This document shows, piece by piece, positions 2 through 30,156 of a stretch of DNA of 34,289 nt. The DNA is from a virus: positions 1 to 34,289 of IMG/VR virus record IMGVR_UViG_3300046009_004257; one strand, 5' to 3'. Made by a program: the position numbers and the translations under genes. The notes below the pieces were generated by a model. It was not told the origin of the DNA and ran no database searches. It was given only the letters and a program-made list of their open reading frames with translations. Positions within the stretch are counted from its first letter, which is position 1; every line of letters begins with the position of its first letter.

Positions 2-1048
2 AAGTGGGAGTCGCTACATCGCGCTCTCCGTCGCTCTGGAACGCCCTTCCGCGTGCTTGTAGGCGACTGTAACCCAGAAGACGAGTACCATTGGGCAAAC
101 CAGCGTTGCTTGCAGGGAAAGGCCCGCAGGATCGTTGGGCGCTTCTGGGATAACCCGAAATGGTACAACCACAAAAGTGGTACATGGACGGTGGATGGTA
201 CTGAGTACCTCAACCGCCTCAAGAACAGCTTGTCCGGCGTGCGCTTGCAGCGTCTGTACTACGGCAAGTGGGTTAGCGCCGAAGGTCAAGTGTGGGAGAA
301 CTACGACCAGCATCACCACGTGATCGACGGACAGATGGAAAAACAAAACGGGGAGTGGTTCCTCGTTTCGCCAAATCTCGACAAGCCAGTCCACATCAAG
401 TGGTTCCTTGGCGCTCAGGATATTGGGTTTGATGCCCCTGGCGTCTTCCAATGCTGGGGCGTGGACGGCGAGAACCGCATGTACCGCTTAGTCGAGATCT
501 ACAAGCGCCATTGGGATCACGACCAATGGGCTAAAGCCATCGTTGAGGTCAACCAAGAGTTTGAGATGGCCGCTATCGTGACCGACCACGATCCGGCGTT
601 CATCTCTAACCTCAACCGTTGGCTAGATCGTCATGGTATGACTCGCATTGTGCGCGAGTGGGACAAGCACCGTGGGCCTGGCGGCGAGAAAGCCGGCATT
701 GACCAAGTGCGCGTGCGCATGAAGCGGCGCGGTGACGGCACGTTTGGCTTGTACCTTCTGCGCAACGCCACCAAGTACAAGGATGTGCGTTTGGAAAGCG
801 AAGGCAAGCCGTGGTGTACCGAGATGGAAATCCCTGCTTATGTCTATCCGCTAGTGGAAGACGGCAAGCTCAATCGCGATACTCCTGACCCTGGCTGCAT
901 CGACCACGGCTGTGACGCTATGCGCGGGGCTTGCACCTTCTCGTGGGAACGCGACCTCGGCAAAGAAGTTGAGTACAAGGCCAAGTATGACGGTGGAACG
1001 CTAGGACACATCTTGGATCACGAAAAATGGGAAGTGAGCAATGCTTAA
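2..1048 (+). CDS. terL: Terminase large subunit, C-terminal part (5' truncated by window edge)
   Basis: The frame is open from base 2 and continues upstream of the window. The GTG at 53 is therefore an internal codon, not the start. The visible 348 residues are the end of the ATPase domain (an NP-containing strand, GDCNPEDEYHW) followed by the RNase H-like nuclease. Acidic residues that fit the metal site are the Asp codons at 419 and 431 (QDIGFD), 584 and 590 (TDHD) and 914 (CDAMRGA). The Walker A and B motifs would lie outside the window. The protein powers DNA packaging into the prohead and cuts the concatemer. The stop overlaps the portal start by 8 bases, the usual terminase-portal order. 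The family is clear from the nuclease motifs and the position; the packaging mode (pac or cos) cannot be told. Confidence 0.88.
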   Translation, partial: KWESLHRALRRSGTPFRVLVGDCNPEDEYHWANQRCLQGKARRIVGRFWDNPKWYNHKSGTWTVDGTEYLNRLKNSLSGVRLQRLYYGKWVSAEGQVWENYDQHHHVIDGQMEKQNGEWFLVSPNLDKPVHIKWFLGAQDIGFDAPGVFQCWGVDGENRMYRLVEIYKRHWDHDQWAKAIVEVNQEFEMAAIVTDHDPAFISNLNRWLDRHGMTRIVREWDKHRGPGGEKAGIDQVRVRMKRRGDGTFGLYLLRNATKYKDVRLESEGKPWCTEMEIPAYVYPLVEDGKLNRDTPDPGCIDHGCDAMRGACTFSWERDLGKEVEYKAKYDGGTLGHILDHEKWEVSNA

Positions 1049-4374: not shown

Positions 4375-5610
4375 ATGCCTGCAATCGTATCTTTTGCCGA
4401 CTGGGCAGAAGCGACTGGCCCGCTGCTCCTTACGGGGCCGGAAAAGTTCGTTAACGCTGCTCAACTCCAAAACTATTCATGGGCGCGCTTCGTGCGCGGT
4501 AAGGAATACTCTGAGATCGTTCAGGGTGGTTCCGAAATCCGCGACGAGTTGATGTTCGACGAAGCTAACACCTTCTCGATGTATCAGCCCAACGACCCCC
4601 AGACCCCGACGATGCCCCAGGTGCTTACGCGCTGGTCGTCGCCGTGGCGCTTCGCCGTTGACAGCTATAGCTGGACGGAAGAAGAAGAAGCGTTGAACGC
4701 TGGCTCTTCGTACACCGAAGACGCTCGCTTCATGCAATACAAGTCGCTCCTCACCAAGCTGGAAATGCGCGTGCAGACCTCGATCTGCAACGGCATGGAA
4801 ACCAAGTGGTGGGCGGTTCCCGATGCAAGCACGATGGAAGCTGCGGCTGGCAAAGAGCCGTACTCCATCCCGGCGTTCATCAACGAACAAGCTAACGGCT
4901 TGTTTAATGATGTTGGCGGTGCAGGTGCGTTTACGACTGTTGAAACCATCAACCCGACCGCCGTTGGCAAAACCAAGTGGCGCAACCGAGTGATCGGCTA
5001 CGACAGCCCCGCCGTGAAGCCGACTGCCGGCGCTCGCAACGTCATCAATGCGATGGACGATGCGTTCTTGCAGTTGAACTTCCGTCCGCCCGCTGGCAAG
5101 GAAGCCTACTTCGAGCCGAACACGTGGAACAGCATTGCGTCGTTCACCACGAAGAAGGGTCTTCTCGTGATGACCGACCTGCTGCGTCAAGGTCAAGACT
5201 GGTACACCAACCGTACTAGCCCTGACTCGGCCTTCAACGGCCCGATGTACGCCGGTATGGAAATCGTGTACGTGCCGCAGTTGGATGCAGCTCCGCTGTA
5301 TCTCAACACTACTGCTGGTGGCAATGATATGGTGTCCGAAGGCGACTCCCTTGCTGCCGGTCGCGGCCCGCGCTACTACTTGCTCAACGCCAAGTACCTG
5401 AAGACTGTGTTCCACAAGGACAAGTACTTCGTTCGCAAGCCGCCGATGTCGCCGTTCAACCAGCCGTTCACGAAGACTGTTTACATCAACAGCTACTTCA
5501 ACAACGTCTGCACGGCGCGTCACACGCACGCGATCATCACTCCTGGCACGGTTACGGGTTCGTTCCCGTCGACCACGTTGACTCCGGCTCAGGTCTACTC
5601 GGCCTACTGA
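4375..5610 (+). CDS. Major capsid protein (HK97-type expected)
   Basis: A 411-residue protein downstream of the scaffold. Length, position and strong use of frequent codons point to the major coat protein. Features typical of podoviral coat proteins include an N-terminal segment with many aromatic residues, a middle region rich in Trp/Tyr, and a C-terminal domain with a FHKDKYF strand and a final beta-rich piece (TARHTHAIITPG). No proteolysed N-terminal domain is obvious, which fits a separate scaffold. It forms the hexamers and pentamers of the icosahedral shell. The ATG at 4375 has only a weak purine-rich site upstream (CAAGAGACTGAAAA). A 405-codon open frame on the opposite strand across this gene is a codon-bias shadow. 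Confidence 0.88.
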   Translation: MPAIVSFADWAEATGPLLLTGPEKFVNAAQLQNYSWARFVRGKEYSEIVQGGSEIRDELMFDEANTFSMYQPNDPQTPTMPQVLTRWSSPWRFAVDSYSWTEEEEALNAGSSYTEDARFMQYKSLLTKLEMRVQTSICNGMETKWWAVPDASTMEAAAGKEPYSIPAFINEQANGLFNDVGGAGAFTTVETINPTAVGKTKWRNRVIGYDSPAVKPTAGARNVINAMDDAFLQLNFRPPAGKEAYFEPNTWNSIASFTTKKGLLVMTDLLRQGQDWYTNRTSPDSAFNGPMYAGMEIVYVPQLDAAPLYLNTTAGGNDMVSEGDSLAAGRGPRYYLLNAKYLKTVFHKDKYFVRKPPMSPFNQPFTKTVYINSYFNNVCTARHTHAIITPGTVTGSFPSTTLTPAQVYSAY

Positions 5611-7518: not shown

Positions 7519-10500
7519 ATGGCAAACTTTGAGCTACAGTTTCCGCTTGGTGGACTAAACGACAATGTCGCGCAGTCCAAGCAGCCTAGCGGAACTACAA
7601 ACGAAGCAATCAATGTGCGGGGGCAAGACCCCATCACAGGACGCATCCGTGGTGCTCAAAGAAGTGGGCTTACAAAGTATGTAGTTGAGTCGATGGAGGC
7701 ACGTGTCAAGCGGTTTGAGAAGGTTGTGTACGACAACCGTCAACTGCGGTATGTGCCTTTAGACTCATCCAATATTAAGTTGATTTGGGAGAAGGCTAAC
7801 AACAACTCAAACGCCAGCACCTATTGCGTTGTGGACTACAAAGAAAATGTTTATGTAGTTGACGCTGGCCGCACGGTGCAAAAGTTTAACAAGAACGGCG
7901 TGCTTGTGTACACATTTGCACCAGCAGGCTTAGAAGATGTCAATTTGTACATCCGTGGTTTAGCTGTAGATGATGCAGGCGGTGTATGGATTGGAACAGG
8001 TCACAAAAACGCTGCTGACCTAGCAATTAGCCCATCGCAGCTTGCAAATTTGACATCTTTAAGTAAAACACGAATCTGGAAATATAAAGAATCTGAATCA
8101 GATGTTCCTCCTGTTTTGGATTATGCATTTGAACCAAAGTTGACAATTGAAAAATTGGTTTTACAGCAAGGAATGCTGTATGCAGCAGCTAATGATCCAT
8201 TGCTAGAGGTGGGCTATGTTGTAGCTTACGATGAAATTTACAGTACAGGCATGGAAGAAGCGGCTCGTAGAAAAATGCCGTATCCATTGTGCGATATTGA
8301 TGTGTTAGCTGACGGAAAAGTTTGCTTTACTTCTCCAGTTAACCTAAATCGTTACGAAAAACATTCACAACAATATCCAAATTACAGACCAACTGCGGTC
8401 GATTGGACTCCAGCTCAGATTCCTAATGACAAACTTTGGTCTTGGTATGACGCTTCTCAAATGGAAGGCGTAACTGACAATGAACGAGTTACGGCTTGGT
8501 TTGATGTAAGCGGTGCAGGACGCAACTTAGGCTGCACGCTTACCGAAACGGGGCCAAAGTACTTAGCAACTGGCTGGGCTGGTCAGCCATGTTTTGATTT
8601 TGATGGTGCTTCGCAACTGTATACCGTTGGAGGACAGCCGACAACACCTCAGTCTAGCGATGGTTCTGCTTCAGCGTTTCCTAATTATGCAAACGCCAAA
8701 TGGGCTATGCACATTGTGTTTAGGCCACAAGTAGCAGAAGATGAAAATCCGATTACAGCTCCAACTTATTTGTGTGGGGTTGATACATCGTTGCCAGAAA
8801 AACATGATTTGCATGTAGCTGTACACAAATTACAAAACCTTATGTTTCCTGGGCAAGTCAACCCAAATAAGGTTTTATTGTATGCTACACCAGATAGTGC
8901 GCTTTCTTGGAGTAAATTGTCTCAAGGTTACAATGGGACTAACGTACAAGAAAATCCCAATCCACCGTTTGCGACAAGTGGAAATCAAATGTCATACATT
9001 GGCGCTGGAGCTTACAAATTTCCCGCGCCAGCAACTTTGTCAACAGTTAACAATGCTAGTGTTTTAACTATTATTTATGCAGTTGGATCAGGCGATGGCA
9101 CTACTGAACTTGAATGCCATTATCGTTTTAATGGACAGCCTATTGACCGTTGGCGTGGAGTGCAAATTAGTGCTTCTGCTGGTTTTTATTTGGGTCGTCA
9201 AGCGCCTGGCCTGTCTGCATCAACAACTAACTGGTTTAAAGGTCAAGTTGCAGAAATCATCACGCTGCACAATTTAGACCAATCATATGTTCCACAATAT
9301 CCGCGCACATTAGGTTTAGCGTGCAAAGCGCTAACTCAAACATTTACAGCTACTAAAGACACATATTCCAACAACGGATTAGGCCAAGGAGAAGAGCCAA
9401 ATTTAATTTCGCCTTACTATACTAGTACTACGGGAAATACATTCCCATATTTGTATTTTAATTATATTTTGCTTTGCGATCCAGTTAATGGAGTTGATTT
9501 GTTAAGAGGTGATGTAGTAGAAATTTACGGGCAAATTCGTGGCGTTTTAGGGCCAAGACGAGAATACACTTATCCCGATCAAGGTGATTCATTTGATACA
9601 TATTATACTGGAATGCCAATTACCTATCCATTTACGTGGGGCGGCAGTTCAACTACTGCTATTGTAAATCCTGCAAGCCTACATAGCGCCGCAGCAACAT
9701 TTGCTCCTAACATTACTAACGCAAATGCAACGCTGTGCGAAAAAATTGAAGGCTATTTAGCGTGGAAGTGGGGCATTTGGCATTTGCTGCCTAAGGGCAA
9801 TCATACGCCGCCGCAACTTGCCATGAACACGACCTACGTTTTTGGCAACTGGCCGCATCCGTATCGCAATGCGCCGCCGAGTTCTGTGGACACGGACACC
9901 GTTAGCAAAGCCGCTGTGATTGCTAGTCCGCTAGCAGTTGCTGGATGCCTTGAGTCAATTGACGGCCCGTATCGCTGGGTTGTAGACGGTTTAAGTGGTT
10001 TTGGCGCAGGCGTTGGTTTGCGTATTATGGCAACCGAAGCTGCGTTTTATACTATGGGTGATCCGCAGTTTACGGGTTCTACAAACGATGGCACGTACAG
10101 TTGGCCGAATGTTAACGGCAACGGTCGCAAGTTGGTTTACAACGCGGCTACTCAAGTTGTTTCTGATGCGTGGTCTGGAACGTTAGCTAGTTCTAGTACA
10201 ACTGCTATTAGCGCAACATCCGACTACATTCCGCACTTGTCTAAAGATGCGTTTGATAATGTGTACTACCCGTTCACCTTTGCAGGTGGCGCATACGGTG
10301 TCGGCTGGTCAATCGTAGGCAAAGATGCAGGTAACACGCCGATTGCCCTGTTGTCTAAGGACACCAATGGCGACGTTGTTTTACAGGCTGCGCCTGAGTT
10401 TGTGTCGCCAGAATATCGCATTGGAAATAGCATTTCCGCTGATTTTCCAAGTATTCCTGACCCATTAGATCCCGACACTTATCCGCGTGCAGAAAATGTC

Positions 10501-11883
10501 TACGTGTTAAAAGACGGCACAGGTGACGAGCAGACAATTGAACGATATGAAATTGTTGCTAGTGTTTCTGATTCAAACAATCCATCACCACGAGCGCAGG
10601 TATTGCTTGCTGTATCTAACGGCAAAATCAAAAAGATTACGCCAAGCGGTGTAAGTTCGCCTGTTGGCGTTGATACTTTGCCGCAACCGGAACTAGATGC
10701 TAATGCGCCGTATGTTGACTGCGCGGTGCTGTTTGGCAAAGTGTATTTTACTGATGGTTTGGCATACCGCGTGTTTGACCCGCGCAACGACACGGTGCTG
10801 GAGTGGAGAGCGCTTGATGCTGGAACGCTGCCTAACCGGTGCAAACTTGTAACAAACTGGCGTGGCCGTGCGGTTTTAGCTCGTGGTGCTGACGATCCGC
10901 ACAACTGGCACATGAGCGAGCAAGGCAATCCTACCGGTTGGGACACTTTCCCAGCTGTTCAAACAGCTACGCAAGCTATCAGCGGTAACAACGCTCGCGC
11001 TGGCTTGTGTCCTGACTTGATCAACAGCCTCATTCCTTACAACGACGACTTGCTGTTGTTTGGCTGCGATTCGTCGCTGTGGATGATGCGCGGTGACCCG
11101 ATGGCCGGCGGTGTGTTTGATCTTGTATCGGATGTCACCGGCGTTGCGTTTGGACGCTCGTGGGCTAAGGATCCAGAAGGCACGCTGTACTTCTTCGGAT
11201 CGCGTGGCGGCGTGTACATCATGAAGCCAGGCAGCGTGCCTGTGTCCATGACGCAGTCCACGATTGAGCGGCGGTTGAACAATGTCAACTTGTCGCAGTT
11301 CTACGTCGAGATGTTCTGGAACACCTACGATGACGGCCTACACGTCTTCCTAATGCCGTTTACCGACACGGCTAGCCGCACTAAGCACTACTTCTGGGAA
11401 CGCAAGTCTGGTGCGTGGTACGAAGACACCTTTGCGCTAACGAAGCAGCCCTCTGCCGCAGTTGTCATTGACGGTGACGCTGCTGATGACCGCTGCTTGC
11501 TGATCGGAACTTACGACAGCAGCGTTGTGCGCTGGGACAAGCTTGCTACAAGCGACGACGGCCAGCTTATCGACGGCAAGGTGCTTATTGGCCCCATTGC
11601 GCCCGACGATAGCGAGTTTGACGCACGCATCACCAACCTTGCAGCCGTGATGGCAAACCAAGGTGCGGTCAACTACAAGCTCTACGCTAGCACTACGCCG
11701 GATGACAAAGGCCAGCCAGTTGCAAGCGGGCAGTTTGTCCCTGGGCGCAACCCAATCCACCTTGTACGCGCCCGAGGGGCATTTGTGTGGATGGAGCTAC
11801 AGCAAGCCAATGCGTTTACGCGGTGGTCGCTAGAGTCTATTCGCCTAGATGCGTACCCCGCAGGAAGGAAGCGTAATGGCTGA
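7519..11883 (+). CDS. Tail nozzle (gp12/TTPB-type) protein with inserted lectin-like domain
   Basis: A 1454-residue protein; podoviral nozzle proteins are usually about 600-1000 residues. The start (residues 1-60, FPLGGLNDNVA then GGARS-like INVRG and GRIRGAQRSGL) and the C-terminal half (about 790-1454, with HNWHMSEQGNPTGWDTF, LIPYNDDLLLFG, GTLYFFGSRGGVYIM) are the repeated beta-propeller strands of such nozzles. Between about residues 300 and 785 lies extra sequence with hallmarks of a LamG/concanavalin-like domain: WYDAS at 309, WFDVSGAGRN, CFDFDGASQLY, and the terminal EGYLAWKWG (744-752) plus HPY (780). That part is coded in AT-richer DNA than the rest. The protein closes the DNA channel and presents the appendages; the insert would lie outside and may bind glycans. 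It overlaps the fibre gene by 8 bases. Confidence 0.75.
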   Translation: MANFELQFPLGGLNDNVAQSKQPSGTTNEAINVRGQDPITGRIRGAQRSGLTKYVVESMEARVKRFEKVVYDNRQLRYVPLDSSNIKLIWEKANNNSNASTYCVVDYKENVYVVDAGRTVQKFNKNGVLVYTFAPAGLEDVNLYIRGLAVDDAGGVWIGTGHKNAADLAISPSQLANLTSLSKTRIWKYKESESDVPPVLDYAFEPKLTIEKLVLQQGMLYAAANDPLLEVGYVVAYDEIYSTGMEEAARRKMPYPLCDIDVLADGKVCFTSPVNLNRYEKHSQQYPNYRPTAVDWTPAQIPNDKLWSWYDASQMEGVTDNERVTAWFDVSGAGRNLGCTLTETGPKYLATGWAGQPCFDFDGASQLYTVGGQPTTPQSSDGSASAFPNYANAKWAMHIVFRPQVAEDENPITAPTYLCGVDTSLPEKHDLHVAVHKLQNLMFPGQVNPNKVLLYATPDSALSWSKLSQGYNGTNVQENPNPPFATSGNQMSYIGAGAYKFPAPATLSTVNNASVLTIIYAVGSGDGTTELECHYRFNGQPIDRWRGVQISASAGFYLGRQAPGLSASTTNWFKGQVAEIITLHNLDQSYVPQYPRTLGLACKALTQTFTATKDTYSNNGLGQGEEPNLISPYYTSTTGNTFPYLYFNYILLCDPVNGVDLLRGDVVEIYGQIRGVLGPRREYTYPDQGDSFDTYYTGMPITYPFTWGGSSTTAIVNPASLHSAAATFAPNITNANATLCEKIEGYLAWKWGIWHLLPKGNHTPPQLAMNTTYVFGNWPHPYRNAPPSSVDTDTVSKAAVIASPLAVAGCLESIDGPYRWVVDGLSGFGAGVGLRIMATEAAFYTMGDPQFTGSTNDGTYSWPNVNGNGRKLVYNAATQVVSDAWSGTLASSSTTAISATSDYIPHLSKDAFDNVYYPFTFAGGAYGVGWSIVGKDAGNTPIALLSKDTNGDVVLQAAPEFVSPEYRIGNSISADFPSIPDPLDPDTYPRAENVYVLKDGTGDEQTIERYEIVASVSDSNNPSPRAQVLLAVSNGKIKKITPSGVSSPVGVDTLPQPELDANAPYVDCAVLFGKVYFTDGLAYRVFDPRNDTVLEWRALDAGTLPNRCKLVTNWRGRAVLARGADDPHNWHMSEQGNPTGWDTFPAVQTATQAISGNNARAGLCPDLINSLIPYNDDLLLFGCDSSLWMMRGDPMAGGVFDLVSDVTGVAFGRSWAKDPEGTLYFFGSRGGVYIMKPGSVPVSMTQSTIERRLNNVNLSQFYVEMFWNTYDDGLHVFLMPFTDTASRTKHYFWERKSGAWYEDTFALTKQPSAAVVIDGDAADDRCLLIGTYDSSVVRWDKLATSDDGQLIDGKVLIGPIAPDDSEFDARITNLAAVMANQGAVNYKLYASTTPDDKGQPVASGQFVPGRNPIHLVRARGAFVWMELQQANAFTRWSLESIRLDAYPAGRKRNG

Positions 11884-17514: not shown

Positions 17515-20500
17515 ATGAACGAACTCGACCAATTCTCCTTCATGGACGAACCGAGCCAAGCGGTGGCATCACCGGCACAGCTTGGCGCAAACGCTTTGGA
17601 TCAGTTTGCCTTCATGGATGAGGAGGCCGACTACACGATTGGCGAGTATTTTCAGCAAGCAGGTAGCAGCTTTGTTAGCGGGTTAAGTGGCACTTTTACT
17701 AGTGCTATTGAAGGCTTGGGCATTGCTATTGAGGGCATGACGGGCGAGTCCAGCATTGATGACTGGGCGCGTGAAACACAGGAATCCATTAACAACGCTG
17801 TCCCTGGCGTAATGGGCTTGCAGAACTCGTGGACGGCCAAGGTGTCTGGCGCGTTTGGTTCGGCAGGCGGCTTTGTGCTTGCATCTGCTGCTACAGGTGG
17901 TTTGGGCGGCGCAGTAGGCAAAGGCTTGTCGGGCGTAAGTATGTTTGGCCGTACTGCGCTGACAGGCGCGGAGGCGGTTGCCGCCGGTGCAAAGGTGGCG
18001 CAGGCAACGCAATTGGTAACCGCTGGTTCTTTGGGTGCGCTTGGCAACGCTGCTGCGCGGTACGACGAAGCACTCATGCTTGGGAAGTCAGAGGAAGACG
18101 CATGGAAGTCTTACTTTGTCGGCATGGGCATTGGTTCGCTGGAAGCCATGCCTGTCGGTCTAAACCGCGCCGCTATGCGTTTGGGGCGCGTTAATAAGGC
18201 ATCTGGCGGTGCGCTGCGCAACTTGACTGTCGGCCAAGTCATGCTGGCTGAGGGCTTAGAAGAAGCTGGTCAAGAGATGCTGTCGGAAGGCTTAAATCAG
18301 CTATCCGACTACGCACTAAGCATTAAGTCAGCCGAAGAAGCGTTTGACTTCCAACAGCTTCTTGAATCGGGCGTGCTTGGCTTCTTGCCTGGTAGCGCAA
18401 TCGGTGGCCTGACGGCGCGGTCTACTATTGCTGCTAACCTTGCGGAAGAGCGCAAGAAGGTCGAGGCCGAAGAGGAAGCCAAGCTCACGGCAGACATTGC
18501 CAAGCAGCGCGAGGAGTTTGAGGCGCAAAAAATTGGCGTGGTCGAGGAGTCGGCCAAGCAAGCACAAGAGTTGGTTGCTGCCGGTGAAGCGGAGTTGGCG
18601 CGACTGCAAGGGCCAGCAGAGGCAGTTGCGGGAACAGAGCCTACACCGATTGGAACGCCAGAGGAAATTGCGGTTGTTGAACAGCAGTTAGAACAAGCCC
18701 GCAAAAACCGCGATGTGCTAGTCGAGCAGCTTCGCGCTGTGACGGCAGCACCTACGCAGGAAGAAAAGCTGTTGCAGGCTGGCGCATACGGTCAAGCTCA
18801 AGCGCGTGCAGAGCAGGCTGGCATGGGCGAGCAGTTCCGTGCTGCCACAAAGCCAGGTGCTGAACGAGTTTTGGCCGCAGAGGAACAAGCAGCTTGGGAT
18901 GAAAGAAAAACCAAATGGGCTAAAGCTCCGATCTTCAAAGAAAAGTACAACTCGCTAAAAGATGCGAAGTTGGTTGTTGCCGCAACAACAGAACAGCAAA
19001 ACGCAGAAAAGATTTTGACCGACCTTGGTGTCAAGGTTGAGTTTATTGATCTAGGCAATGACGATACGGCATTTGAGGGGATTGAGTCTGGCAACACTAT
19101 TTTCTTAAATGCTCGGTTATCTGGCGATGCAATGTTGCGCAAGGTTGCGCGGCACGAGGCATTCCACACTATTTTCCGTAGCAAAGAAGGCCGACAAGCA
19201 TGGAATGCAACCATGCAACGACTCTCGGCTGCTGCGCCTAATGTGTGGGCCGCTGCAAGACAAAAAGCACTTGGCGAGCTTGTTGACACCAAAGGCAGCG
19301 CAGAAGCATTAAAAACAGCCCTGAAAACGCCTGAGGGCGTAGAAGAATTGTTGACCGAGCAAGGCTCGTCTGCCGCAGACATTTTCAGCGCGACCATTGA
19401 CGCGCTTGAGGCAAACCCTGCACTTGCCGAAGAGGTCATGCAGGCTGATCCGACCTTCTTCCAGAAGTTATTGGATTGGGTCAAGACTAAACTGAACAGG
19501 CTAGGGTTTAAGTACGAGACACTAGCTGACGCTGATCGCAAGGCTATTGAGAAGCTCCCCAAGCTGCTGTACCTAACGCAGGCCGGCGAGGTTGAGGTCG
19601 AAGCTGGAGCCAACGAACGCATTGCAGGCGCACAGGTGCTTATGCGCCTGCTTAAGGCCGCAGAGGAAGGCACGGTAGCCGCTGCCTCTGGTCGCGAACG
19701 GCAAGCTCGTGTGTTTGCTACGCGCACGCTAGGTGAACTAGAAGCGGGTAGCGTAATTGATGCCAAGCGGCGCGAACTATTAGAAAAAGAAGAAGCCGAG
19801 GTACGCGCTAAGTACGAAGAGCGTCGCCAGCGCGTTGTAGAAGCTGCACGCAAACGCTTGGCTCGCATTAAACCATCTGACGAAGAGTGGCAAGTAATCG
19901 ACGCTGTAGGCGCGGCAAATACAGAAGAAGCGCAGTTAGCCGCTATTCAGTCGTTGCCTGACTTACCTGACGGGATTACAGACGAAGAACTGCGCAGCTA
20001 TGTGCAGGTGGCTAACGAGGTCTATGACCGCAACCAAGAAAAAGAAGCTCGTCAAGCCGAAATTGCTGAGAATCGCAGGCAAGCCAAAGAACGCCAAGAA
20101 ACTGCCGCAGAAAAATTGCGTGTAGCGCAAGAAGCTACATACAAAAACAAGCTAACTGACCTGCGTGCAGCAGATCCTAAAGGTAATGCGCTAAACCAAA
20201 TTCGGCGTTTGATTAATGCGGGTAGTACCGAAGAGGCAGCGCGTAGCATTGCTCGCGAGTATGTAGGCAAGAACGCAACCGCAGATCAAGTAGACGAAAC
20301 AACGGTTGCGTTGCTAACTGCTGCTGAAAATTTGCAACGCAAAGAAAAAGAAGCGGCAGAAGCAAAAGCGGCAGCAGCGCAAAAGCGTAAAGATGAGGCG
20401 GAACAGCGCAAGGCAACAGAGGAAGCTAATCGCACCCGTCGCCAAGAAGCTCGCGCTCGGCAACAGCGTGAGTTGCTAGAACGCCGCATTGAGGCTGACA

Positions 20501-23500
20501 AAGCTCGCCGTGCAGAAATTGCTGCCAAGCAAGATGAAATGATGGCGCAGGCTTATGCGTTGACGCAGGACAAGCTAGAGCAGCAGCGGCTAGAATTGGC
20601 TGAAAAGACCCGTGTGCAGGAAGCTGCATTACAAGTACAGCGGGAAAAGGTCGAAACGCTAAAACGCCAAATTGCCCAGCGCGAAGAACTAGCAGCCAAG
20701 GCGACGGAGGAGGCTGATAAACGTGCAAAGGAACAAGCTGTGGAGCGTGCGCGGCGAGAAAAGATTGCTGCCGACAACCAGCAAGCGTTGCTGCAAGCTC
20801 GCGTAAAAGCCGCTGAGGCCGCAGAAGCTCGTCATCGCGAATCTATGGCGATGCGGCAGACCGAATTAGCTGAGTACACCCGCTTGCGCGAAGCTGACAT
20901 TGCAGCGCGTCAGGCATTGCTAACAGAGCGCACGGCAGCGCGTGCAGCCGCCGAACAACGCTTGGCTGAGGCTAAGACGGAAGCTGAACGCAAGCAGGCC
21001 GCAAAGGATGCAGAAGCCGCCAAAGCTGCACAGGAAGCCACAGAACGCGATGCGCAGCTTGCTGAAGAGGAAGCTAAAAAAGCCGAAGAGCGCGAAGAAC
21101 GCAAACGACAAAAGCTGCCTACGGTTGTCGCTGGGCGTACCGTGCCAGGGCAATTGCGCGTGGGTGACATTGTCATGTTCCGCAACCGCGCCGCCAAGGT
21201 CGTGGAGGCTACTGGTAGCGGTTTGGATCAGCGCGTCAAATTGCGCCCCATTACAGACGCTGAAAACCAAATTGCGATGGAGGCCGAAGAAGCTGGAACA
21301 AAGGATTGGTGGAACACCATCTCGTTCCTAGGCGAGTGGGTAAAGGTGATGATGAACGATTCACGCATCACCGCACGCATTGCTCGACGCAGCGATGTTG
21401 AGGTGCTAACCGAAGACGGCAAGAAGATGTTTGAACGCCGTCTGGAAGCTGATGTTGCCCGTCGCGAGGGCGACGCGCCGCTGTTCTCAGCTAAAGGACA
21501 AGCCATCACTCCAGAGATGGAAGCCGAGTACATGGCTGCGGCAGAGGCTGGCGATCTGGCAACTGCGCAGCGGATGGTGGATGAAGCGGCACAAGCTGCT
21601 GGGTACACAATTGGCCCGGTTTATCACGCTGGAGAAAAATCGTTTAATGAATTTAAAACATTAGCTGAGCAAGCAGAGGAAACTGGAGAATATTACGAGC
21701 CAGAAGGTTATGACGGTGGAAATCTAGGCATTGGATTCTATTTTACTCCAGACCTAGCTTATGCGGCTAAATATGGAAAAGCGCGCAAGTTTTATTTGAA
21801 GATTGAAAAGCTTTTAGACACAAAAAACACAAAGGTTCAAAAGCGATTTAGTCAGCTGCTAGATGAAATGAACGAAGACTTAGGTGACGTTGCGCAAGGC
21901 GAAGTTATTGATGCTTTGCTAGATGAAACTAATTCAACAGGTGTTGTTGGCTATGGCGTTGGCGGTTTTTCAAATGGCTCTACGGAATACATGGTGCGCC
22001 GTAGCAAGCAAGCTAAATTAGCCGATCCTGTCGCTTACGACAATAACAACAACATCATCCCGCTGTCGCAGCGGTTTAACGAGCAAGTTGACGACATCCG
22101 TTTTTCCGTTAAAGGTCAAGCGATTACACCAGAGATGGAAGCTGAATACATGGCCGCTGTTGAAAGCGGTGACATGAACACAGCCCAGCAGATGGTTAAC
22201 AAAGCAATGGATATTGCTGGAATTGTTATGCCAACTGTGGTTCAACGTCAAACTAATTATGCGGCAGATGTAACAGTTCAAAACAATAGAGCCTATTCGC
22301 CAATTGTACGAGATTTGCTTCGTAGGCGAGCTGAAGGTGAAAATATTACGCAGGCAATGATTAATGAAGCAATTGTCAATAATTTCCCTTCAAGTCTGGT
22401 AAAAGTACCTAATACGGTGGCAGATTTGCCATCTGAAGCTGAGGTTATCAATGCGCTAGACGAAAGACAAAAAGTGCAGCGCATTGAAAAACAATCTATT
22501 CCTATTAACAGTCAAGTAACGCTGCGCCAAGACGTTCCATCGTGGACTCGTAACAAAGTTGGCGTGGTTACTATTCAAACTAAAAACGGCAAAGCCTATT
22601 CGCAGGCAGCAAGAATTTTAAACCCAGATTTTGTTGTAAATGAAAAAGAGTCATTGAAAATTGCTATGGGGGAAAGCAAAAAACCTCATATTGCAATTCG
22701 AGGTACATGGTCGCCTGATCAATCAATGCCGTTTAATTTAAAAAAATGGACGCAGGTTGGTTACAACCCAGATAGACATAGTTTTTATTACGACAGAGCC
22801 ACAATGATTGAGGTTGTTGGCGGATCAGAGGCATATCAAATTGGAAATACTGTTTTTGTTAAAGATGCCAAATACATTAATGACCCTGTGCTTTATGACG
22901 CGCAAGGCAACGTAATCCCGCTGTCACAACGCTTCCAAGATACGATTGACGACATTCGTTACTCGGTAAGAGCTAAAGTTCCTGCTGCCGTTGGCTTTGC
23001 TGGTGGAGGCACGTTTGAGATCGCGTTGAGCGATGTACTTGACACGCAGTTAGCCGTTGAGATGAAACCTGACATTGCCGAAGCGTACAACCGCAACGCG
23101 CAGCGTCCTGCCACGGTTGCCAAGATTGGCGATGTTGATGCCGAAGACTTCAAAGGCAAGGTGCTAGCTCACTTCAGCCCGCCGTGCGTTGACTCGTCGT
23201 TGCTGCGTAGCGGCCAAGGTGTGAACAAGGCCGAGGAAACTGAGCGCGGGCGTGAAGTAGCCAACATTATCCGCGTGGCTCAGAACCCGATTGTCGTTAT
23301 TGAAAACGTTAGGGAATACGGCAAATCGGAAGCGTACAAGCTGATCACAGACGCGCTTACGGAATCGGGCTACACCTGGGACGCGCACGTGTACAAGGCG
23401 CAGGACTACGGTTCGCCCAGCAAGCGTCAGCGGCTGTTTGTTCGCGCTGTAAAAGAAGGCGAGTTGCCGCCGCGTCCTGAGCCTACTCACTCCAACAAGC

Positions 23501-26500
23501 CCACCTTGTTTGAAGCCCCGTATGCTTCGTGGGGCGATGCCATTGCCGATTTGCTGCCCACGCTGCCTGAGTTTGAAGGCCCGCTACCGCCGTATGTGTT
23601 GAAGTCGTTGGCCGCGCAAAGCATCAACCCGAAGTCACCCAGCAAGGCGTACTACATCAGCGGCACGCAAGTACACGGGCTAGCACCTTTGTCGCCGTTT
23701 GATAAGCCCTCGCCTGGCATGGTTGCAAGCGGCGCAGAAACCCCGCGCATCCTTATGCCTGATGGCCGCGTCCTGCGCGTCACGCCTGAGGCGATGAAGC
23801 GTCTTATGGGCTTTGGCGCAGAAATGCAGCTGCCAAGCGATCCGAAGCTAGCCAAGCGCATTGTGGGCAACGGTATCCCCAAGCCGCTGACCCGTGCGGT
23901 TGTACTGCCGCTGCTAGAGTCGCAAGGCGTGCTAGACACGCAAAGTCCGTTGTTTTCGGTAAAAGGCAAGGGCGGCGAAAAGCCTGGCAAACCTGCCAAG
24001 CAAAAACCTGCTACTCGCGTTTCGGCAACTGAAGTTAAGCGTGCTGCGGCGGAATTAAAAAAAGCTCAAGCGCGAGCAGAACGCAGTCGATTAAAAACGC
24101 TACGCGAAAGTATGCGTCGCGTTGAAGGCTTGGCCGCAATTGCAGAAAAAGGCGGCGAGGGCACAGACATCGGTGAGGCACCTGGCACAGCCATCGCTGG
24201 AGCAACTGAGGAAGGTCGAGCCTACACGCGAGCATTGCGCGAAGATATGGCCGACATCCGCGATCAAATCTTGCCTGATCTAAAAGCGGACGACGAAGCG
24301 CGTGCTGAAGCTGTTGCCAAACTTGACGCAGACTACGAAGGCACAAAGCGTCAGCTATACGAAGAGATTACCGAGACTGGCAATGTAAGTGAGCCGTGGA
24401 AGGTGTACGCCACTATGGTTATTGCTGCTCGCGAAGCTGAAGCGGCAACGACAGGTCGCATGACCGTTGACAAATACTTGGCTGCATATGAGGCCGAGGC
24501 GTATGACGCGATTGTCAAACGTGCTGCTTCTGCTGGCCTGCGCGTGCGCAAAGACTCAGTAATGAGCGCACGGAAGCGCAACAAGGCGCATTTGTTTGCT
24601 GAAACCTCGTCGCTACGTCGAGAAATGCGCAAGCTGCGCAAAGCCATCGACACCGGCAATAAAAAGCAACGCGATTCAGCTGAGAAGAAAATTGCCAAAA
24701 TGCGGCAACAGCACGCAGAGGCAGTCGTGGAGTTCTTTGACTCCATGCAGCAGCAAGGCTACGACATTGACGATATGTACTCGTACCTTGCCAAGGGCGA
24801 TGTTGTCAGCTTCTCGCGGTTAGCACGCGGCGCGGCTGACGCTCGCGTGCGTACAGACTTGGCTTCTGGCCGTGTGCAGTCTGCTTGGGATGGCCTGATG
24901 GAAATCCGCTTGGCTTCCATGCTGTCAGGCATGGGAACCCATGTGGCAAACATCACCGGCAACGCCGCCATGCAAACGCTGCGCACTACGCGCCAGCTAG
25001 CTGAAGTCTTGACTAACATGGTCTACCGCGATCCCAATAGCGCGGATTACGGTGACTTCAAAGCCTACATGACAGGTTGGCTGCGGTCGCTGTCGCGAGC
25101 TACGCGCAACTTTGTAATGGCTTATCGCACCGATATGCCGGTGTTTGAGGTCGAGCTTAGTGCAGAGGCCGCGAGTGAGTTTGCTAACCAAACAAACGCC
25201 ATCCCTGGCATCATTGGCCGCATCCTGCGTTTCCCTTCGTTAACTACGCTGCGTGCGTTCGACGAGTTCTTTAAGACAATGGCGGCGTACACGGAAACAG
25301 CCAGCTTGGCGTACCGTGATGGTCGTTCTAAGGGCATCAGCGGGCCTGCGCTAGAGAACTACATCGACGGCGTGCTGGTCAACTACAACGACCCGCTGTG
25401 GCAAGAAGGTTTGGATCGCGCTTTGGAAACCGTGTTCCAAGGCAAGGGCGACAGCCTGACCCGCATCTTGCTGTCAACTCGCGAGTATTTGAACAACAAC
25501 CCAACAACGGTTCCTATCGGCACATACTTGCTGCCGTTCATTAAAACGCCGTTGCAGATTTTCAAAGTCGGCCTGAGTATGCCGATTCACCCTGTGATTC
25601 CGTTGATGCGTTGGATCAATACCTTGCGCGGTATTGAGTACACAAAGGCCCAGCAAGTTACCGATAGTGCAAACGCTTTGATTTCCGCCGGCATGATGAT
25701 GCTTGCCTACGGCCTGCTTGGCGACGATGACGACGACGAAGTGGCGGCTACAGGTGCTGCGCCTGACGAGTACACGGAGCGTGAGCTTATGGCCCGTGTC
25801 GCTCCAGCCTACAGCATTAAAGGCCCTGGCGGTGATTGGTACAGCTATGCACGCATTGAGCCGTTTGCTACGGCCTTCTCGGCTATGGTTGACCTGTCAC
25901 GCGCCCAGCAGCGTTTAATGCGCGACGATGTTCCGGATAAATGGTCACAGTCCTTTGGCATCGTGCTAAACAACGCGCTAGGCCAAATTGAGGATAAGAC
26001 CTTCCTGCGCACAGTTGGCGATGTTGCCAAGATGGTTCGCGACCGCGAGCAGATCAATGTGGCGCGATTTACCAAGGATCTGTTTGTCACGCCGATGATT
26101 CCAAACTTAGTGCGGCAACAAGTTGGCGCAAGCGATCCCTATGTGCGTAACACCTCCGTGCGGGAATACGAGGATGTTTCGGCGTGGGAAGCAGCAATGC
26201 AGGTTGTGTCGTTCCAAGTCTATCCTGACGCTAACCGTCCAGACGCGCCGCCGATCAAGTACGACCTGTGGGGGCGGTCTATCGAGAAGCCAGGGCGCAG
26301 CGAGTTTGCCCGCAACTTCTCGCCCGCCAAACTGGAGTACCAAGAAGAAGACATTCACAAGCTCGACCGTCTCATCGTCACTTTTAACGACAAGGTCGAG
26401 GACGGAAAATTTGGCGGCGATGTCCAAAAGTACCTGCCGCGTGCGGTGGAATACCGCATTAAACGAAACGACAAAGAGTATTTGCTGACCAAAGAAGAGT

Positions 26501-26694
26501 ACGCCCGCGTGTCTAAAGAGGCAGGCGAAAAGGCAGCTCAGAGGCTACAATACCGCCGCTTAAACTACGATGACCCTACCGAACGGGACATCGAAGTTAT
26601 CAAGGAGCAAATCAGCAAGTCGCGCAAGCTGATTATTGATAAAGTCCTGCGCGAAAGACGGCTCACACAAAACCAAACGCCACAAAACCCATGA
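17515..26694 (+). CDS. Giant polyvalent virion protein: zincin, ART-like, C5-methyltransferase, LPD38-like
   Basis: A 3059-residue protein. Residues 4-12 and 28-36 repeat the motif LDQF(S/A)FMDE. Residues 60-310 are Gly/Ala-rich and partly hydrophobic. HEAFH at 547-551 is a zincin-type motif. Residues 843-1200 are a coiled coil, followed by a small beta-barrel-like piece (1206-1245). Residues 1325-1531 are an ART-like module: YH at 1370, GFYFTPD around Tyr1409, Glu1491. Residues 1531-1817 are a second module with the same borders but another core. Residues 1820-2142 are a cytosine-C5 methyltransferase: FAGGG 1828, PPC at 1889-1891, ENV 1930, RQR 1971, GNGIP 2118. Residues 2463 to about 2900 resemble LPD38 (LASMLSG, THVANITGN, RAFDEFF). 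Polyvalent proteins are thought to enter the host with phage DNA. The gene follows two ejection genes, so virion location is likely. Confidence 0.82.
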   Translation: MNELDQFSFMDEPSQAVASPAQLGANALDQFAFMDEEADYTIGEYFQQAGSSFVSGLSGTFTSAIEGLGIAIEGMTGESSIDDWARETQESINNAVPGVMGLQNSWTAKVSGAFGSAGGFVLASAATGGLGGAVGKGLSGVSMFGRTALTGAEAVAAGAKVAQATQLVTAGSLGALGNAAARYDEALMLGKSEEDAWKSYFVGMGIGSLEAMPVGLNRAAMRLGRVNKASGGALRNLTVGQVMLAEGLEEAGQEMLSEGLNQLSDYALSIKSAEEAFDFQQLLESGVLGFLPGSAIGGLTARSTIAANLAEERKKVEAEEEAKLTADIAKQREEFEAQKIGVVEESAKQAQELVAAGEAELARLQGPAEAVAGTEPTPIGTPEEIAVVEQQLEQARKNRDVLVEQLRAVTAAPTQEEKLLQAGAYGQAQARAEQAGMGEQFRAATKPGAERVLAAEEQAAWDERKTKWAKAPIFKEKYNSLKDAKLVVAATTEQQNAEKILTDLGVKVEFIDLGNDDTAFEGIESGNTIFLNARLSGDAMLRKVARHEAFHTIFRSKEGRQAWNATMQRLSAAAPNVWAAARQKALGELVDTKGSAEALKTALKTPEGVEELLTEQGSSAADIFSATIDALEANPALAEEVMQADPTFFQKLLDWVKTKLNRLGFKYETLADADRKAIEKLPKLLYLTQAGEVEVEAGANERIAGAQVLMRLLKAAEEGTVAAASGRERQARVFATRTLGELEAGSVIDAKRRELLEKEEAEVRAKYEERRQRVVEAARKRLARIKPSDEEWQVIDAVGAANTEEAQLAAIQSLPDLPDGITDEELRSYVQVANEVYDRNQEKEARQAEIAENRRQAKERQETAAEKLRVAQEATYKNKLTDLRAADPKGNALNQIRRLINAGSTEEAARSIAREYVGKNATADQVDETTVALLTAAENLQRKEKEAAEAKAAAAQKRKDEAEQRKATEEANRTRRQEARARQQRELLERRIEADKARRAEIAAKQDEMMAQAYALTQDKLEQQRLELAEKTRVQEAALQVQREKVETLKRQIAQREELAAKATEEADKRAKEQAVERARREKIAADNQQALLQARVKAAEAAEARHRESMAMRQTELAEYTRLREADIAARQALLTERTAARAAAEQRLAEAKTEAERKQAAKDAEAAKAAQEATERDAQLAEEEAKKAEEREERKRQKLPTVVAGRTVPGQLRVGDIVMFRNRAAKVVEATGSGLDQRVKLRPITDAENQIAMEAEEAGTKDWWNTISFLGEWVKVMMNDSRITARIARRSDVEVLTEDGKKMFERRLEADVARREGDAPLFSAKGQAITPEMEAEYMAAAEAGDLATAQRMVDEAAQAAGYTIGPVYHAGEKSFNEFKTLAEQAEETGEYYEPEGYDGGNLGIGFYFTPDLAYAAKYGKARKFYLKIEKLLDTKNTKVQKRFSQLLDEMNEDLGDVAQGEVIDALLDETNSTGVVGYGVGGFSNGSTEYMVRRSKQAKLADPVAYDNNNNIIPLSQRFNEQVDDIRFSVKGQAITPEMEAEYMAAVESGDMNTAQQMVNKAMDIAGIVMPTVVQRQTNYAADVTVQNNRAYSPIVRDLLRRRAEGENITQAMINEAIVNNFPSSLVKVPNTVADLPSEAEVINALDERQKVQRIEKQSIPINSQVTLRQDVPSWTRNKVGVVTIQTKNGKAYSQAARILNPDFVVNEKESLKIAMGESKKPHIAIRGTWSPDQSMPFNLKKWTQVGYNPDRHSFYYDRATMIEVVGGSEAYQIGNTVFVKDAKYINDPVLYDAQGNVIPLSQRFQDTIDDIRYSVRAKVPAAVGFAGGGTFEIALSDVLDTQLAVEMKPDIAEAYNRNAQRPATVAKIGDVDAEDFKGKVLAHFSPPCVDSSLLRSGQGVNKAEETERGREVANIIRVAQNPIVVIENVREYGKSEAYKLITDALTESGYTWDAHVYKAQDYGSPSKRQRLFVRAVKEGELPPRPEPTHSNKPTLFEAPYASWGDAIADLLPTLPEFEGPLPPYVLKSLAAQSINPKSPSKAYYISGTQVHGLAPLSPFDKPSPGMVASGAETPRILMPDGRVLRVTPEAMKRLMGFGAEMQLPSDPKLAKRIVGNGIPKPLTRAVVLPLLESQGVLDTQSPLFSVKGKGGEKPGKPAKQKPATRVSATEVKRAAAELKKAQARAERSRLKTLRESMRRVEGLAAIAEKGGEGTDIGEAPGTAIAGATEEGRAYTRALREDMADIRDQILPDLKADDEARAEAVAKLDADYEGTKRQLYEEITETGNVSEPWKVYATMVIAAREAEAATTGRMTVDKYLAAYEAEAYDAIVKRAASAGLRVRKDSVMSARKRNKAHLFAETSSLRREMRKLRKAIDTGNKKQRDSAEKKIAKMRQQHAEAVVEFFDSMQQQGYDIDDMYSYLAKGDVVSFSRLARGAADARVRTDLASGRVQSAWDGLMEIRLASMLSGMGTHVANITGNAAMQTLRTTRQLAEVLTNMVYRDPNSADYGDFKAYMTGWLRSLSRATRNFVMAYRTDMPVFEVELSAEAASEFANQTNAIPGIIGRILRFPSLTTLRAFDEFFKTMAAYTETASLAYRDGRSKGISGPALENYIDGVLVNYNDPLWQEGLDRALETVFQGKGDSLTRILLSTREYLNNNPTTVPIGTYLLPFIKTPLQIFKVGLSMPIHPVIPLMRWINTLRGIEYTKAQQVTDSANALISAGMMMLAYGLLGDDDDDEVAATGAAPDEYTERELMARVAPAYSIKGPGGDWYSYARIEPFATAFSAMVDLSRAQQRLMRDDVPDKWSQSFGIVLNNALGQIEDKTFLRTVGDVAKMVRDREQINVARFTKDLFVTPMIPNLVRQQVGASDPYVRNTSVREYEDVSAWEAAMQVVSFQVYPDANRPDAPPIKYDLWGRSIEKPGRSEFARNFSPAKLEYQEEDIHKLDRLIVTFNDKVEDGKFGGDVQKYLPRAVEYRIKRNDKEYLLTKEEYARVSKEAGEKAAQRLQYRRLNYDDPTERDIEVIKEQISKSRKLIIDKVLRERRLTQNQTPQNP
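21487..21588 (+). repeat. Module-entry repeat, copy A (inside the giant gene)
   Basis: Codes for residues 1325-1358 of the giant protein (SAKGQAITPEMEAEYMAA and on to MVDEA). It is the entry of the ART-like module. Copy B, 618 bases downstream, codes for nearly the same residues, with synonymous changes at many third positions, so the duplication is not recent. Confidence 0.85.
22024..22107 (+). repeat. Module-exit repeat, copy A
   Basis: Codes for 28 residues, 1504-1531 (DPVAYD..., IPLSQRFN, DDIRFS), that close the ART-like module. The same 28-residue exit sequence with moderate change closes the second module at 22882-22965. Confidence 0.85.
22105..22206 (+). repeat. Module-entry repeat, copy B
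   Basis: Codes for residues 1531-1564 (SVKGQAITPEMEAEYMAA and on to MVNKA), matching copy A at most positions. It opens a second module whose core is not ART-like; that core contains LRQDVPSW, LKIAMGESK and a GYNPDRHSFYYDRAT stretch. Confidence 0.85.
22882..22965 (+). repeat. Module-exit repeat, copy B
   Basis: Codes for residues 1790-1817 (DPVLYD..., IPLSQRFQ, DDIRYS), immediately before the methyltransferase domain. It aligns without gaps with copy A at 22024-22107. Confidence 0.85.
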
Positions 26695-26909
26695 GTGCAA
26701 TTCTCGTTCTTATCCAAAAAATCGCCGGTTCGTCTACCTTCTGGGTCAGCGTGTTGCTGCCTATTCTGAAGGTGTTGTTGGAGAAAATCGGCATCAGCAT
26801 TCCTTGGGAAGCCATCATGGCCGGCCAAGGTGCGTATGGCGTGAAGGAAGCCGCCAGCAAGCTCCAGCCGCTCGTCGCGGCCAAAGTCGCAGCCAAGCAG
26901 CCGGAGTAG
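26691..26909 (+). CDS. Small hydrophobic protein, possible holin
   Basis: A 72-residue protein whose ATG overlaps the giant gene's stop (ATGA). The N-terminal half is hydrophobic (residues 3-34, with FWVSVLLPILKVLLEKIGI), enough for one membrane helix or an amphipathic hairpin. The C-terminal half is Ala/Lys-rich (VKEAASKLQPLVAAK). Small single-helix proteins at the end of the late operon, next to a second small membrane protein, are often holins or pinholins. There is no sequence signature that proves this. The endolysin-like gene of this phage is in the opposite operon (33314-33739), so a lysis role would mean a split cassette. An alternative is a membrane or virion accessory protein. Confidence 0.5.
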   Translation: MSAILVLIQKIAGSSTFWVSVLLPILKVLLEKIGISIPWEAIMAGQGAYGVKEAASKLQPLVAAKVAAKQPE

Positions 26910-26917
26910 CTTAAATA

Positions 26918-27169
26918 ATGCAGGGCCAAATGGAACGCGATGTAACAAAAGCCGTGGTTCCTATCACGGCCCTGTCGGTCATCGCCGGTGCGACATGGTG
27001 GTTGGCTTCTAGCCTGCATGGCGTGGATAGCCAACTCCAGTCGCTGCGGCATGAGCTTGCACAGATTCGCGCTCATAACGAGCAGAACTTGCGCCGAGAC
27101 GAGTTCCGTGCCTGGGTGTATCAACTCAAGGCTAATAACGCGATCATCGTCATCCCTGACCCTAAGTAG
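26918..27169 (+). CDS. Small membrane protein with coiled-coil tail (i-spanin- or holin-like)
   Basis: An 83-residue protein and the last gene of the late operon. A short charged N-terminus is followed by one membrane helix (about residues 12-31, VVPITALSVIAGATWWLASS), then a predicted coiled coil (GVDSQLQSLRHELAQIRAH) and a basic/aromatic end. The N-in single helix with a periplasmic coil resembles inner-membrane spanin subunits, but no outer-membrane lipoprotein partner is seen in any frame here, so this remains a guess. ATG at 26918 is taken as start (GGAG 12 bases upstream); ATG at 26930 with an AGGG site 6 bases upstream is a credible alternative. Confidence 0.55.
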   Translation: MQGQMERDVTKAVVPITALSVIAGATWWLASSLHGVDSQLQSLRHELAQIRAHNEQNLRRDEFRAWVYQLKANNAIIVIPDPK

Positions 27170-27182
27170 ACACAGAGGACGA

Positions 27183-27206
27183 CAACCGCCCATGTCGTTG
27201 CGGTTG
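27183..27206. terminator. Inverted repeat 1 in the convergent gap
   Basis: CAACCGC (27183-27189) pairs with GCGGTTG (27200-27206), 10-base loop. It lies between the stop of the last + gene and the stop of the last - gene. No T-run follows on either strand, so termination is inferred from place. Confidence 0.4.
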
Positions 27207-27218
27207 CCGCCCCCTGCC

Positions 27219-27237
27219 GACAGTCACGATGACTGTC
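27219..27237. terminator. Inverted repeat 2, perfect 8-bp stem in the convergent gap
   Basis: GACAGTCA (27219-27226) and TGACTGTC (27230-27237) pair perfectly around a 3-base loop, 5 bases from the stop of the - strand gene. The palindrome would fold in both transcripts and is the best candidate for a bidirectional stop between the two converging operons, although it lacks a T-run. Confidence 0.45.
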
Positions 27238-27241
27238 TACC

Positions 27242-27841
27242 TTAGCGGTCTACGCTCCAAACTTTCGTTTGGGCGCGGATGTTCTTTGGCCAAGATTCGA
27301 GCTTGGTTGAGACGCTTTGGTCTAGCACTAATACCGAGTTCGTTGGCCTGATTGCAAGGCGACCATTGCAGCCGCGCATGAAAAGATATTCTTTCTGCTG
27401 CTCCGGCTCGCGACTCCAGCCGTCACCAACGGGAATCGCGGTAAACAAGTACCAACCGTAAAGCTGGTCGTCGTTGGCAAACGGATCTGTGTGATACACG
27501 CACTCCATGTTCTGGAGGTAGGTGTACTCGTGCAGCGAGAACTGGTAGCCGGTGCAGTCCCAGAACTGCGCCTCGTGCAAGTCCCAACTGCGATTGCACC
27601 AGATGTCGTCTTTGTCCGTAAACGGCCTAAACGCAATCTCGTGCGGCGGGATGTTGCGCACCACGGCGTTGTCTTCTGTGCGTACATGGCATCCCCAAGC
27701 GCGTGACGGCGTGGAGGACAACCCGAACCATACTACAGGCTCATACGCGCTCGTATCCGCGATGTCGCTGCGCAGGAAGGCCGACCGTACCCAGACATAC
27801 AAGTGTTGCGGCAACGAGCCGCTGTGCGTGTATAAAGTCAT
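27242..27841 (-). CDS. Protein of unknown function, Trp/Tyr/Cys-rich
   Basis: A 199-residue protein at the end of the - strand operon. I start it at the ATG at 27841 (MTLYTHSG). An ATG at 27868 in the same frame would overlap the preceding gene and has no better site; an AGGAGG lies 15 bases upstream of 27841, inside the previous gene's end. The protein is rich in Trp, Tyr, Phe, His and Cys (WDLHEAQFWDCTGYQF, CVYHTDPFAN), without CxxC pairs, signal peptide or membrane helix. It looks like a soluble globular domain. Its place at the operon's distal end suggests an accessory or host-takeover role, which is inference only. I do not recognise the family. Confidence 0.65.
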   Translation of the reverse strand: MTLYTHSGSLPQHLYVWVRSAFLRSDIADTSAYEPVVWFGLSSTPSRAWGCHVRTEDNAVVRNIPPHEIAFRPFTDKDDIWCNRSWDLHEAQFWDCTGYQFSLHEYTYLQNMECVYHTDPFANDDQLYGWYLFTAIPVGDGWSREPEQQKEYLFMRGCNGRLAIRPTNSVLVLDQSVSTKLESWPKNIRAQTKVWSVDR

Positions 27842-27845
27842 GTTG

Positions 27846-29009: not shown

Positions 29010-29067
29010 GGTATTGGTTGAGGGAGCGAGTTCATCACCCGCCCCCTCCGTATAGCCCCCCTAGGGC

Positions 29068-29343: not shown

Positions 29344-29370
29344 AAAACTACCTCGTTTCGATTGTCAGGA

Positions 29371-29390
29371 GTGCTTGACCCATCAAGCAC
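29371..29390. other. Hairpin overlapping the stop codon of the 243-residue gene
   Basis: GTGCTTGA (29371-29378) and TCAAGCAC (29383-29390) pair perfectly around a 4-base loop. The stem contains the TGA stop (29385-29383) of the - strand gene. No T-run follows on the - strand. It may slow ribosomes or protect the message 3' end rather than stop transcription. Confidence 0.45.
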
Positions 29391-30114: not shown

Positions 30115-30156
30115 TTCGGTTCGTCCTTGCTAGGTTGTGAGCGTTGCTGTTGCTTG

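Follow-up and report, generated by a model that had tools for sequence, protein, structure and literature searches.

We identified a complete C5-cytosine DNA methyltransferase (MTase) embedded in a giant phage protein encoded by IMGVR_UViG_3300046009_004257, a 34,289-base record of an uncultivated virus that is itself a fragment and is referred to below, over its full length, as the window. The domain is fused within a single 3059-amino acid (aa) open reading frame (ORF), has conserved catalytic residues, evolves under purifying selection and has been exchanged as a cassette, and its relatives recur in several giant proteins. We propose, with a probability of roughly 0.58, that it is the C5-MTase module of a phage polyvalent protein, which would be ejected into the host and give the entering genome a DarB-like protection against restriction.

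Positions 22966–23940 are free of stop codons and translate into 325 aa, residues 1818–2142 of the ORF. This translation contains GFAGGGTFE (motif I), SPPC (motif IV), ENV (motif VI), KRQR (motif VIII) and GNGIP (motif X), in agreement with the five motifs listed by the initial annotation, and the catalytic cysteine that it had placed at residue 1891 is Cys74 of the domain. The domain matches the Pfam family DNA_methylase (PF00145; E-value 9.5e-24, 84.8 bits where the cut-off is 22, profile positions 7–318 of 324) and PHROG 116 (E 2e-28), while its match to TIGR00675 (E 2e-20) scores 73.7 bits, below the curated cut-off of 100.65. An AlphaFold model built on 16 relatives reached a mean predicted local distance difference test score (pLDDT) of 89.3 and aligned over its full length with M.HaeIII (1dct; Z 27.7, 2.7 Å over 281 residues) and with M.HhaI (Z 27.2). 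Motif I had also been described as variant, and it is (F-A-G-G-G-T-F-E), though a related form, FSGxGTVE, is usual in the clade of this domain and found in many rows. The "short" target recognition region, by contrast, was a misreading, because the region is as long as that of M.HhaI: the positions of motifs IX and X are only 2 off, and the domain measures 325 aa against 327. We conclude that 22966–23940 encodes a complete C5-cytosine DNA methyltransferase, with a match far above chance. A CFT motif is the mark of DNMT2, a tRNA methyltransferase; it is absent from the 325-aa translation, and DNMT2-type chemistry was rejected.

To evaluate whether the enzyme has been maintained, we considered residue conservation and selection. 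Across 16 aligned sequences, one of them from the window, F11, G13, E32, C74, E113, N114, R154, R156 and G301-N302-G303 are invariant. Motif IV, SPPC in the window, is SPVC in the majority of relatives; one has SPSC. Comparison of the domain with that of the nearest relative, G001, gave a nonsynonymous divergence (dN) of 0.032, a synonymous divergence (dS) of 0.243 and a dN/dS of 0.13, indicating purifying selection. Invariant catalytic residues together with this ratio argue that the enzyme is apparently kept active.

The MTase is a cassette exchanged between phage lineages: dS is 0.24 within it, and on either side it rises to about 1.9. Between the window giant and its G001 counterpart (2823 aa), identity is 63–64% in the first 900 and the last 880 residues, where dS is near saturation, against 94.8% in the MTase. 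Identity at four-fold sites reaches 80–92% over residues 1801–2175 and is mostly 17–61% elsewhere, the exceptions outside the MTase segment being one value of 75% (4 sites) and one of 83% in residues 1276–1350. The high-identity segment starts within the sequence preceding DDIRYS, a short tag at the upstream border of the domain, and stops just past LFSVKGKGGEKPGKP. Upstream of the MTase the modules are non-homologous: the window has an ADP-ribosyltransferase (ART)-like and an L5 gp82-like module, G001 a different module, and G011, whose own MTase shows 34% identity, two ART-type modules.

Viral contigs were then searched with an alignment of six sequences, mostly fused enzymes, so that the 22 loci recovered are not a fair sample of all C5-MTases. 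In 20 of the 22, the MTase is joined to additional sequence within an ORF no shorter than 439 aa, and in 13 the ORF measures at least 1448 aa; the exceptions to fusion are L060, which stands alone, and L043, where a stop falls just before motif I. Pfam scans of seven ORFs returned, above cut-offs, LPD38 (L044 and L050), LPD22 (L053 and L055) and ART-PolyVal (L050), and the methylase alone in L045, L047 and L052; an LPD14 match in a relative of the window MTase was below cut-off. A maximum-likelihood tree was computed on 24 rows, with L043 taken as fused and with L059, bacterial restriction-modification enzymes and Acica not included; in it, a 99/96 branch separates the 15 fused from the 9 stand-alone rows. 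One giant protein, L053, aligns with Bbp10 of phage BPP-1 over residues 119–675 and 2341–3615, and its MTase (1747–2049) sits in the unmatched middle (675–2341). The fusion is not a one-off, and the enzymes form a clade of exchangeable cassettes across several unrelated giant phage proteins. No prophage relative was found in one genome-contig scan that used a single short pattern, which is weak evidence.

Some of these loci have particular arrangements. The in-frame stop of L043 (position 4089) directly precedes motif I, parts the MTase from upstream sequence that looks ART-like by eye, and is either real or a sequencing error. In the giant ORF of L059 (G027), around residues 2130–2600, the MTase is split between motifs VIII and IX by a long insertion with two GNAT-like repeats, seen by eye, and the PF00145 match resumes 1 kb downstream in the same frame. 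L051, L052 and L054 are shorter ORFs (439–732 aa) with the same MTase at the end; the gene after that of L054 matches a terminase large subunit, a second genomic setting for the clade. The G011 contig (44028 bases) has a 127-base direct terminal repeat, which suggests a complete genome.

Many of the phages concerned carry an additional C5 enzyme. A second PF00145 gene lies outside the giant or fused ORF in 9 of 13 related records (G001, G011, G023, G024, G025, G027, G028, G029 and G030, where it is broken across two frames); none was found in the window, a fragment. The second MTases that were read represent different C5 subtypes, most of which have long variable regions, and resemble the window domain weakly or not at all. 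Any PF00145 gene was present in 3 of 33 arbitrary viral contigs of 20–55 kb, chosen from 75 by length, giving a Fisher p of 1e-4 over records and of 1e-3 when records were grouped by eye into nine lineages, six of them positive. Because the presence of polyvalent proteins was not a matching criterion for these controls, the association may be with polyvalent-bearing phages generally. No C5-MTase was detected in seven capsid-protein relatives without a fused enzyme, most of which are fragments. One capsid relative (75% identity), the G015 contig, encodes at 26180–30535, a possible giant-gene position, an unrelated 1451-aa protein with a GGDEF-like stretch seen by eye, and has no C5-MTase anywhere.

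The stand-alone C5-MTases of G001 and G011 (L149 and L150) show 95.6% identity over 495 aa, compared with about 38% for the C-terminal part of the giant proteins in these two records; the stand-alone gene therefore also seems to move independently. The expectation in the initial annotation that phage C5-MTases are normally separate genes holds among isolates: of 15 isolate phage records found, nine neighbourhoods were opened, and the match lay in a separate annotated gene in eight, the ninth (H7) being unannotated with an ORF of 463 aa.

The carrier resembles a phage "polyvalent" ejection protein and is probably injected with the DNA. Its gene closes a + strand run leading from the terminase through the major head protein to a structural protein, and minus-strand ORFs come next (table below). 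The C-terminal region is collinear with PHROG 6651 ("internal virion protein"), whose pieces occur in the same order in the giant proteins of the window, G001 and G011 among the 17 records searched. The Bcep22-like podophage JC1 is organized alike: its morphogenesis module closes with a DarB-like protein of 4515 aa, reported with 51 unique peptides in purified virions (PMC9144972). Phage N4 is described as ejecting a protein of ~3,500 residues (PMC12633501). Ejection is plausible given the PHROG 6651 match, the late position, the JC1 layout and the N4 precedent. The earlier proposal of an MTase embedded in a larger protein with ejection-type features was borne out, and the enzyme is apparently active.

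Other modules of the carrier are also shared. The HExxH site of a putative zincin metallopeptidase reads HEAFH in the giants of the window and G001 and HETFH in G011; among 12 distinct giant proteins above 1400 aa (near-copies L048 and L063 left out), 11 contain such a site, against 0.003–0.087 expected in each, L045 being without it. ART-PolyVal modules homologous to that of the window pass the cut-off in G011 (48.1 bits) and G023. The L5 gp82-like module adjoins the MTase upstream in L047, L061 and L062 as it does in the window (E 1.6e-15 to 2.5e-13). The module borders carry short tags (LFSAK, DDIRFS, DDIRYS and LFSVK), and a linker, ITPEMEAEYMAA...TAQ.MV, comes after two of these tags.

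Features of the window bearing on the giant protein and its MTase module
Feature	Position	Strand	Basis
Terminase large subunit, opening the structural run	2..1048	+	profile match
Major head protein	4375..5610	+	E 5.8e-6
Virion structural protein	7519..11883	+	E 2.6e-13
3059-aa ORF, ATG start, polyvalent-type giant protein bearing the MTase	17515..26694	+	ORF list, translation
Duplicated short motif, N-terminal (LDQFSFMDE ... LDQFAFMDEE)	17515..17622	+	by eye
Putative zincin metallopeptidase region; HEAFH at 19153-19167 (residue 547)	18835..19629	+	motif
Boundary tag LFSAKG and linker ITPEMEAEYMAAAEAGDLATAQRMVD, first copy	21481..21597	+	sequence comparison
ADP-ribosyltransferase-like module (ART-PolyVal), residues 1369-1504	21619..22026	+	28.1 bits
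Boundary tag DDIRFS and linker, second copy	22090..22215	+	sequence comparison
L5 gp82-like module, residues ~1668-1785	22516..22869	+	PF25735 below cut-off; homologues in relatives
Segment recently exchanged with the G001 lineage, ends approximate	22903..24003	+	site identity, dS
Boundary tag DDIRYS immediately before the MTase	22948..22965	+	tag pattern
C5-cytosine DNA methyltransferase module	22966..23940	+	translation, PF00145, alignment, AlphaFold, structural alignment
Catalytic Cys codon (residue 1891; Cys74 of the domain)	23185..23187	+	translation, alignment
Boundary tag LFSVK immediately after the MTase	23950..23964	+	tag pattern
C-terminal match to PHROG 6651 ("internal virion protein"), collinear	24658..26103	+	profile match, three pieces

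The N-terminal duplication has counterparts, recognized by eye, in G001 (YDLSWV/PDLSWAEE), in the 1451-aa ORF of G015 (DPWAGF, three times) and in Bbp10 (L158 4293–4400; EFDAAVAG/DPFDAAVAG), and was not seen in G011 or most other listed giants; these near-duplicate aromatic motifs are possibly a packaging or ejection signal. Pfam scans matched no LPD domain in the window giant protein, and an LPD38 at its C-terminus was rejected (no Pfam match; hhalign probability of 0.2 against the L044 C-terminus). Putative tail genes at 14070–14450 and 11849–12886 gave weak hexapeptide-repeat-like and adenovirus-shaft-like matches, both below Pfam cut-offs.

In the mechanism that we favour, anti-restriction protection by an ejected C5-MTase, the giant protein would be a late product, synthesized alongside the virion proteins, that is packaged and then ejected along with the DNA. 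The zincin-like part may then cut the chain at the DDIR[FY]S and LFSxK tags around the modules, releasing the MTase. The freed enzyme would use S-adenosylmethionine (AdoMet) to methylate cytosines of the incoming genome and of its first copies at host recognition sites and, by analogy with DarB, would protect phage DNA from restriction before early genes are expressed. MTase, ART-like and other modules are swapped as cassettes, probably via recombination in the conserved tags.

Several points weigh against this mechanism. Virion location, ejection, cleavage at the tags and the substrate are all steps that we infer. PHROG 6651 went unmatched in 14 of the 17 records, so that the other giants may not share the C-terminus of the window; tblastn with the C-terminus gave no match in 50,697 phage records, and a peptide pattern retrieved no relatives of it from viral contigs. 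A Pfam scan of the whole 3059 aa detected neither an EcoKI-type adenine methyltransferase nor a SWI2/SNF2 ATPase, and hence no DarB-partner helicase. The zincin region had no Pfam peptidase match, and its AlphaFold2 model, from 3 sequences, reached a pLDDT of 58.8, leaving the fold unconfirmed; the ART-PolyVal match of the window stays below the 31.2-bit cut-off. The four border tags compare with 0.058 expected in shuffles, under a pattern derived from the same sequences it was scored on. As that pattern occurs in just 4 of 15 listed proteins (window, G001, G011 and L050), cleavage at tags cannot be general.

The position of the gene within a late structural run would also suit an enzyme that methylates progeny DNA in the producer cell, before or during packaging, its presence in the particle being incidental. 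The stand-alone C5-MTases of 9 of 13 relatives suggest a need for C5 methylation that would fit this explanation, yet in those phages the second enzyme could already cover progeny DNA, and such a role offers no easy account of the fusion into a delivery-type protein with several modules; we consider action in the producer cell unlikely. An ejected enzyme could instead act on the host chromosome, affecting transcription or methylation-dependent defences, beside an ART-like module acting on host proteins. ART-type partner modules are predicted to be host-directed effectors (Iyer et al., PMC5512222), and ART-PolyVal matches with E up to 0.01 occur in 4 of 14 records, above cut-off in 2. However, DarB, the best studied virion-borne methyltransferase protein, is described as protecting phage DNA in cis (PMC5512222), and we regard a host target as distinctly improbable.

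The chemistry itself might also differ from the one we propose. A decayed or non-catalytic DNA-binding domain would be in line with the non-canonical motif I and with the PVC or PSC of motif IV in many relatives, but the catalytic residues are all invariant, selection is purifying and the fold is complete and of high confidence, so that we give such a remnant very little weight. The CmoX structure 8yf3 was the top PDB sequence match, on par with M.HhaI (6.9e-6 against 7.3e-6), as might be expected of a C5-carboxymethyltransferase that uses carboxy-S-adenosylmethionine and starts DNA hypermodification. CmoX specificity is reported to need an Arg replacing HhaI Asn304 (PMC12783734), however, and the window has Asn302 at this position, within a GNG that is invariant across the 16-sequence alignment. 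Carboxymethyl chemistry was rejected on this ground and is barely credible; AdoMet is the expected donor because the Asn that CmoX swaps for Arg is retained.

A wider scheme, which we put forward tentatively and hold to be somewhat doubtful, is that of a C5-MTase clade specialised for virion delivery and spread as a cassette among unrelated giants (of the PHROG 6651 type, of the BPP-1/Bbp10 type in L053, and others). Two enzymes would then divide the work: the ejected one would guard the entering genome, and the unrelated stand-alone C5 enzyme would mark the copies. If protection by an ejected C5 enzyme is correct, virion-delivered anti-restriction would be widened from adenine to C5-cytosine methylation, in a form present in numerous uncultivated phages. 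Since bisulfite or nanopore sequencing reads C5 marks directly, the long-standing question of the role of injected phage enzymes in the first minutes of infection becomes testable. The giant proteins themselves emerge as a chassis for exchangeable cargo, with cassette borders clear enough for dissection.

Known systems share some of these features. Like the polyvalent proteins of Iyer et al. 2017, the window giant is a multi-module chain with an HExxH site, a sub-cut-off ART-like module that would add an unrelated chemistry, and a phage structural context, and relatives of its MTase carry LPD38, LPD22 and ART-PolyVal. That paper (PMC5512222) describes the polyvalent methylases as predominantly EcoKI/TaqI-type enzymes acting on adenine N6, unlike the C5-cytosine enzyme of the window; in its main text, the word "cytosine" is confined to the reference list. 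A survey of jumbo phages (PMC7824862) reports C5 enzymes and, in the text available, does not place them in polyvalent proteins. Our literature search, which did not extend to bioRxiv preprints, to any supplements or to the majority of subscription papers, found no C5 enzyme in a polyvalent or virion protein.

DarB of P1 and the DarB-like giants of Bcep22-like podophages likewise combine large size and late expression with a role as a DNA methyltransferase. In JC1, gp69 is the last gene of the morphogenesis module, as the window giant is of its run, and gp69 has been seen in the virion (PMC9144972). The window differs from DarB in its C5-cytosine instead of adenine chemistry and in the lack of a SWI2/SNF2 helicase in the Pfam scan. 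Stand-alone phage C5-MTases (PaV-LD, CL131, Acica and others) belong to the same PF00145 family, with 23–31% identity by tblastn, but are separate genes, and those on the tree fall across the 99/96 branch. With M.HhaI and M.HaeIII the domain shares fold, size and motif order, at 17–18% identity in structural alignments; those are restriction-modification enzymes and are unfused. Bbp10 of BPP-1 has N- and C-terminal parts that are homologous to those of the L053 giant: Bbp10 (2052 aa) has ~190 aa where L053 has ~1665 aa, including an MTase related to that of the window.

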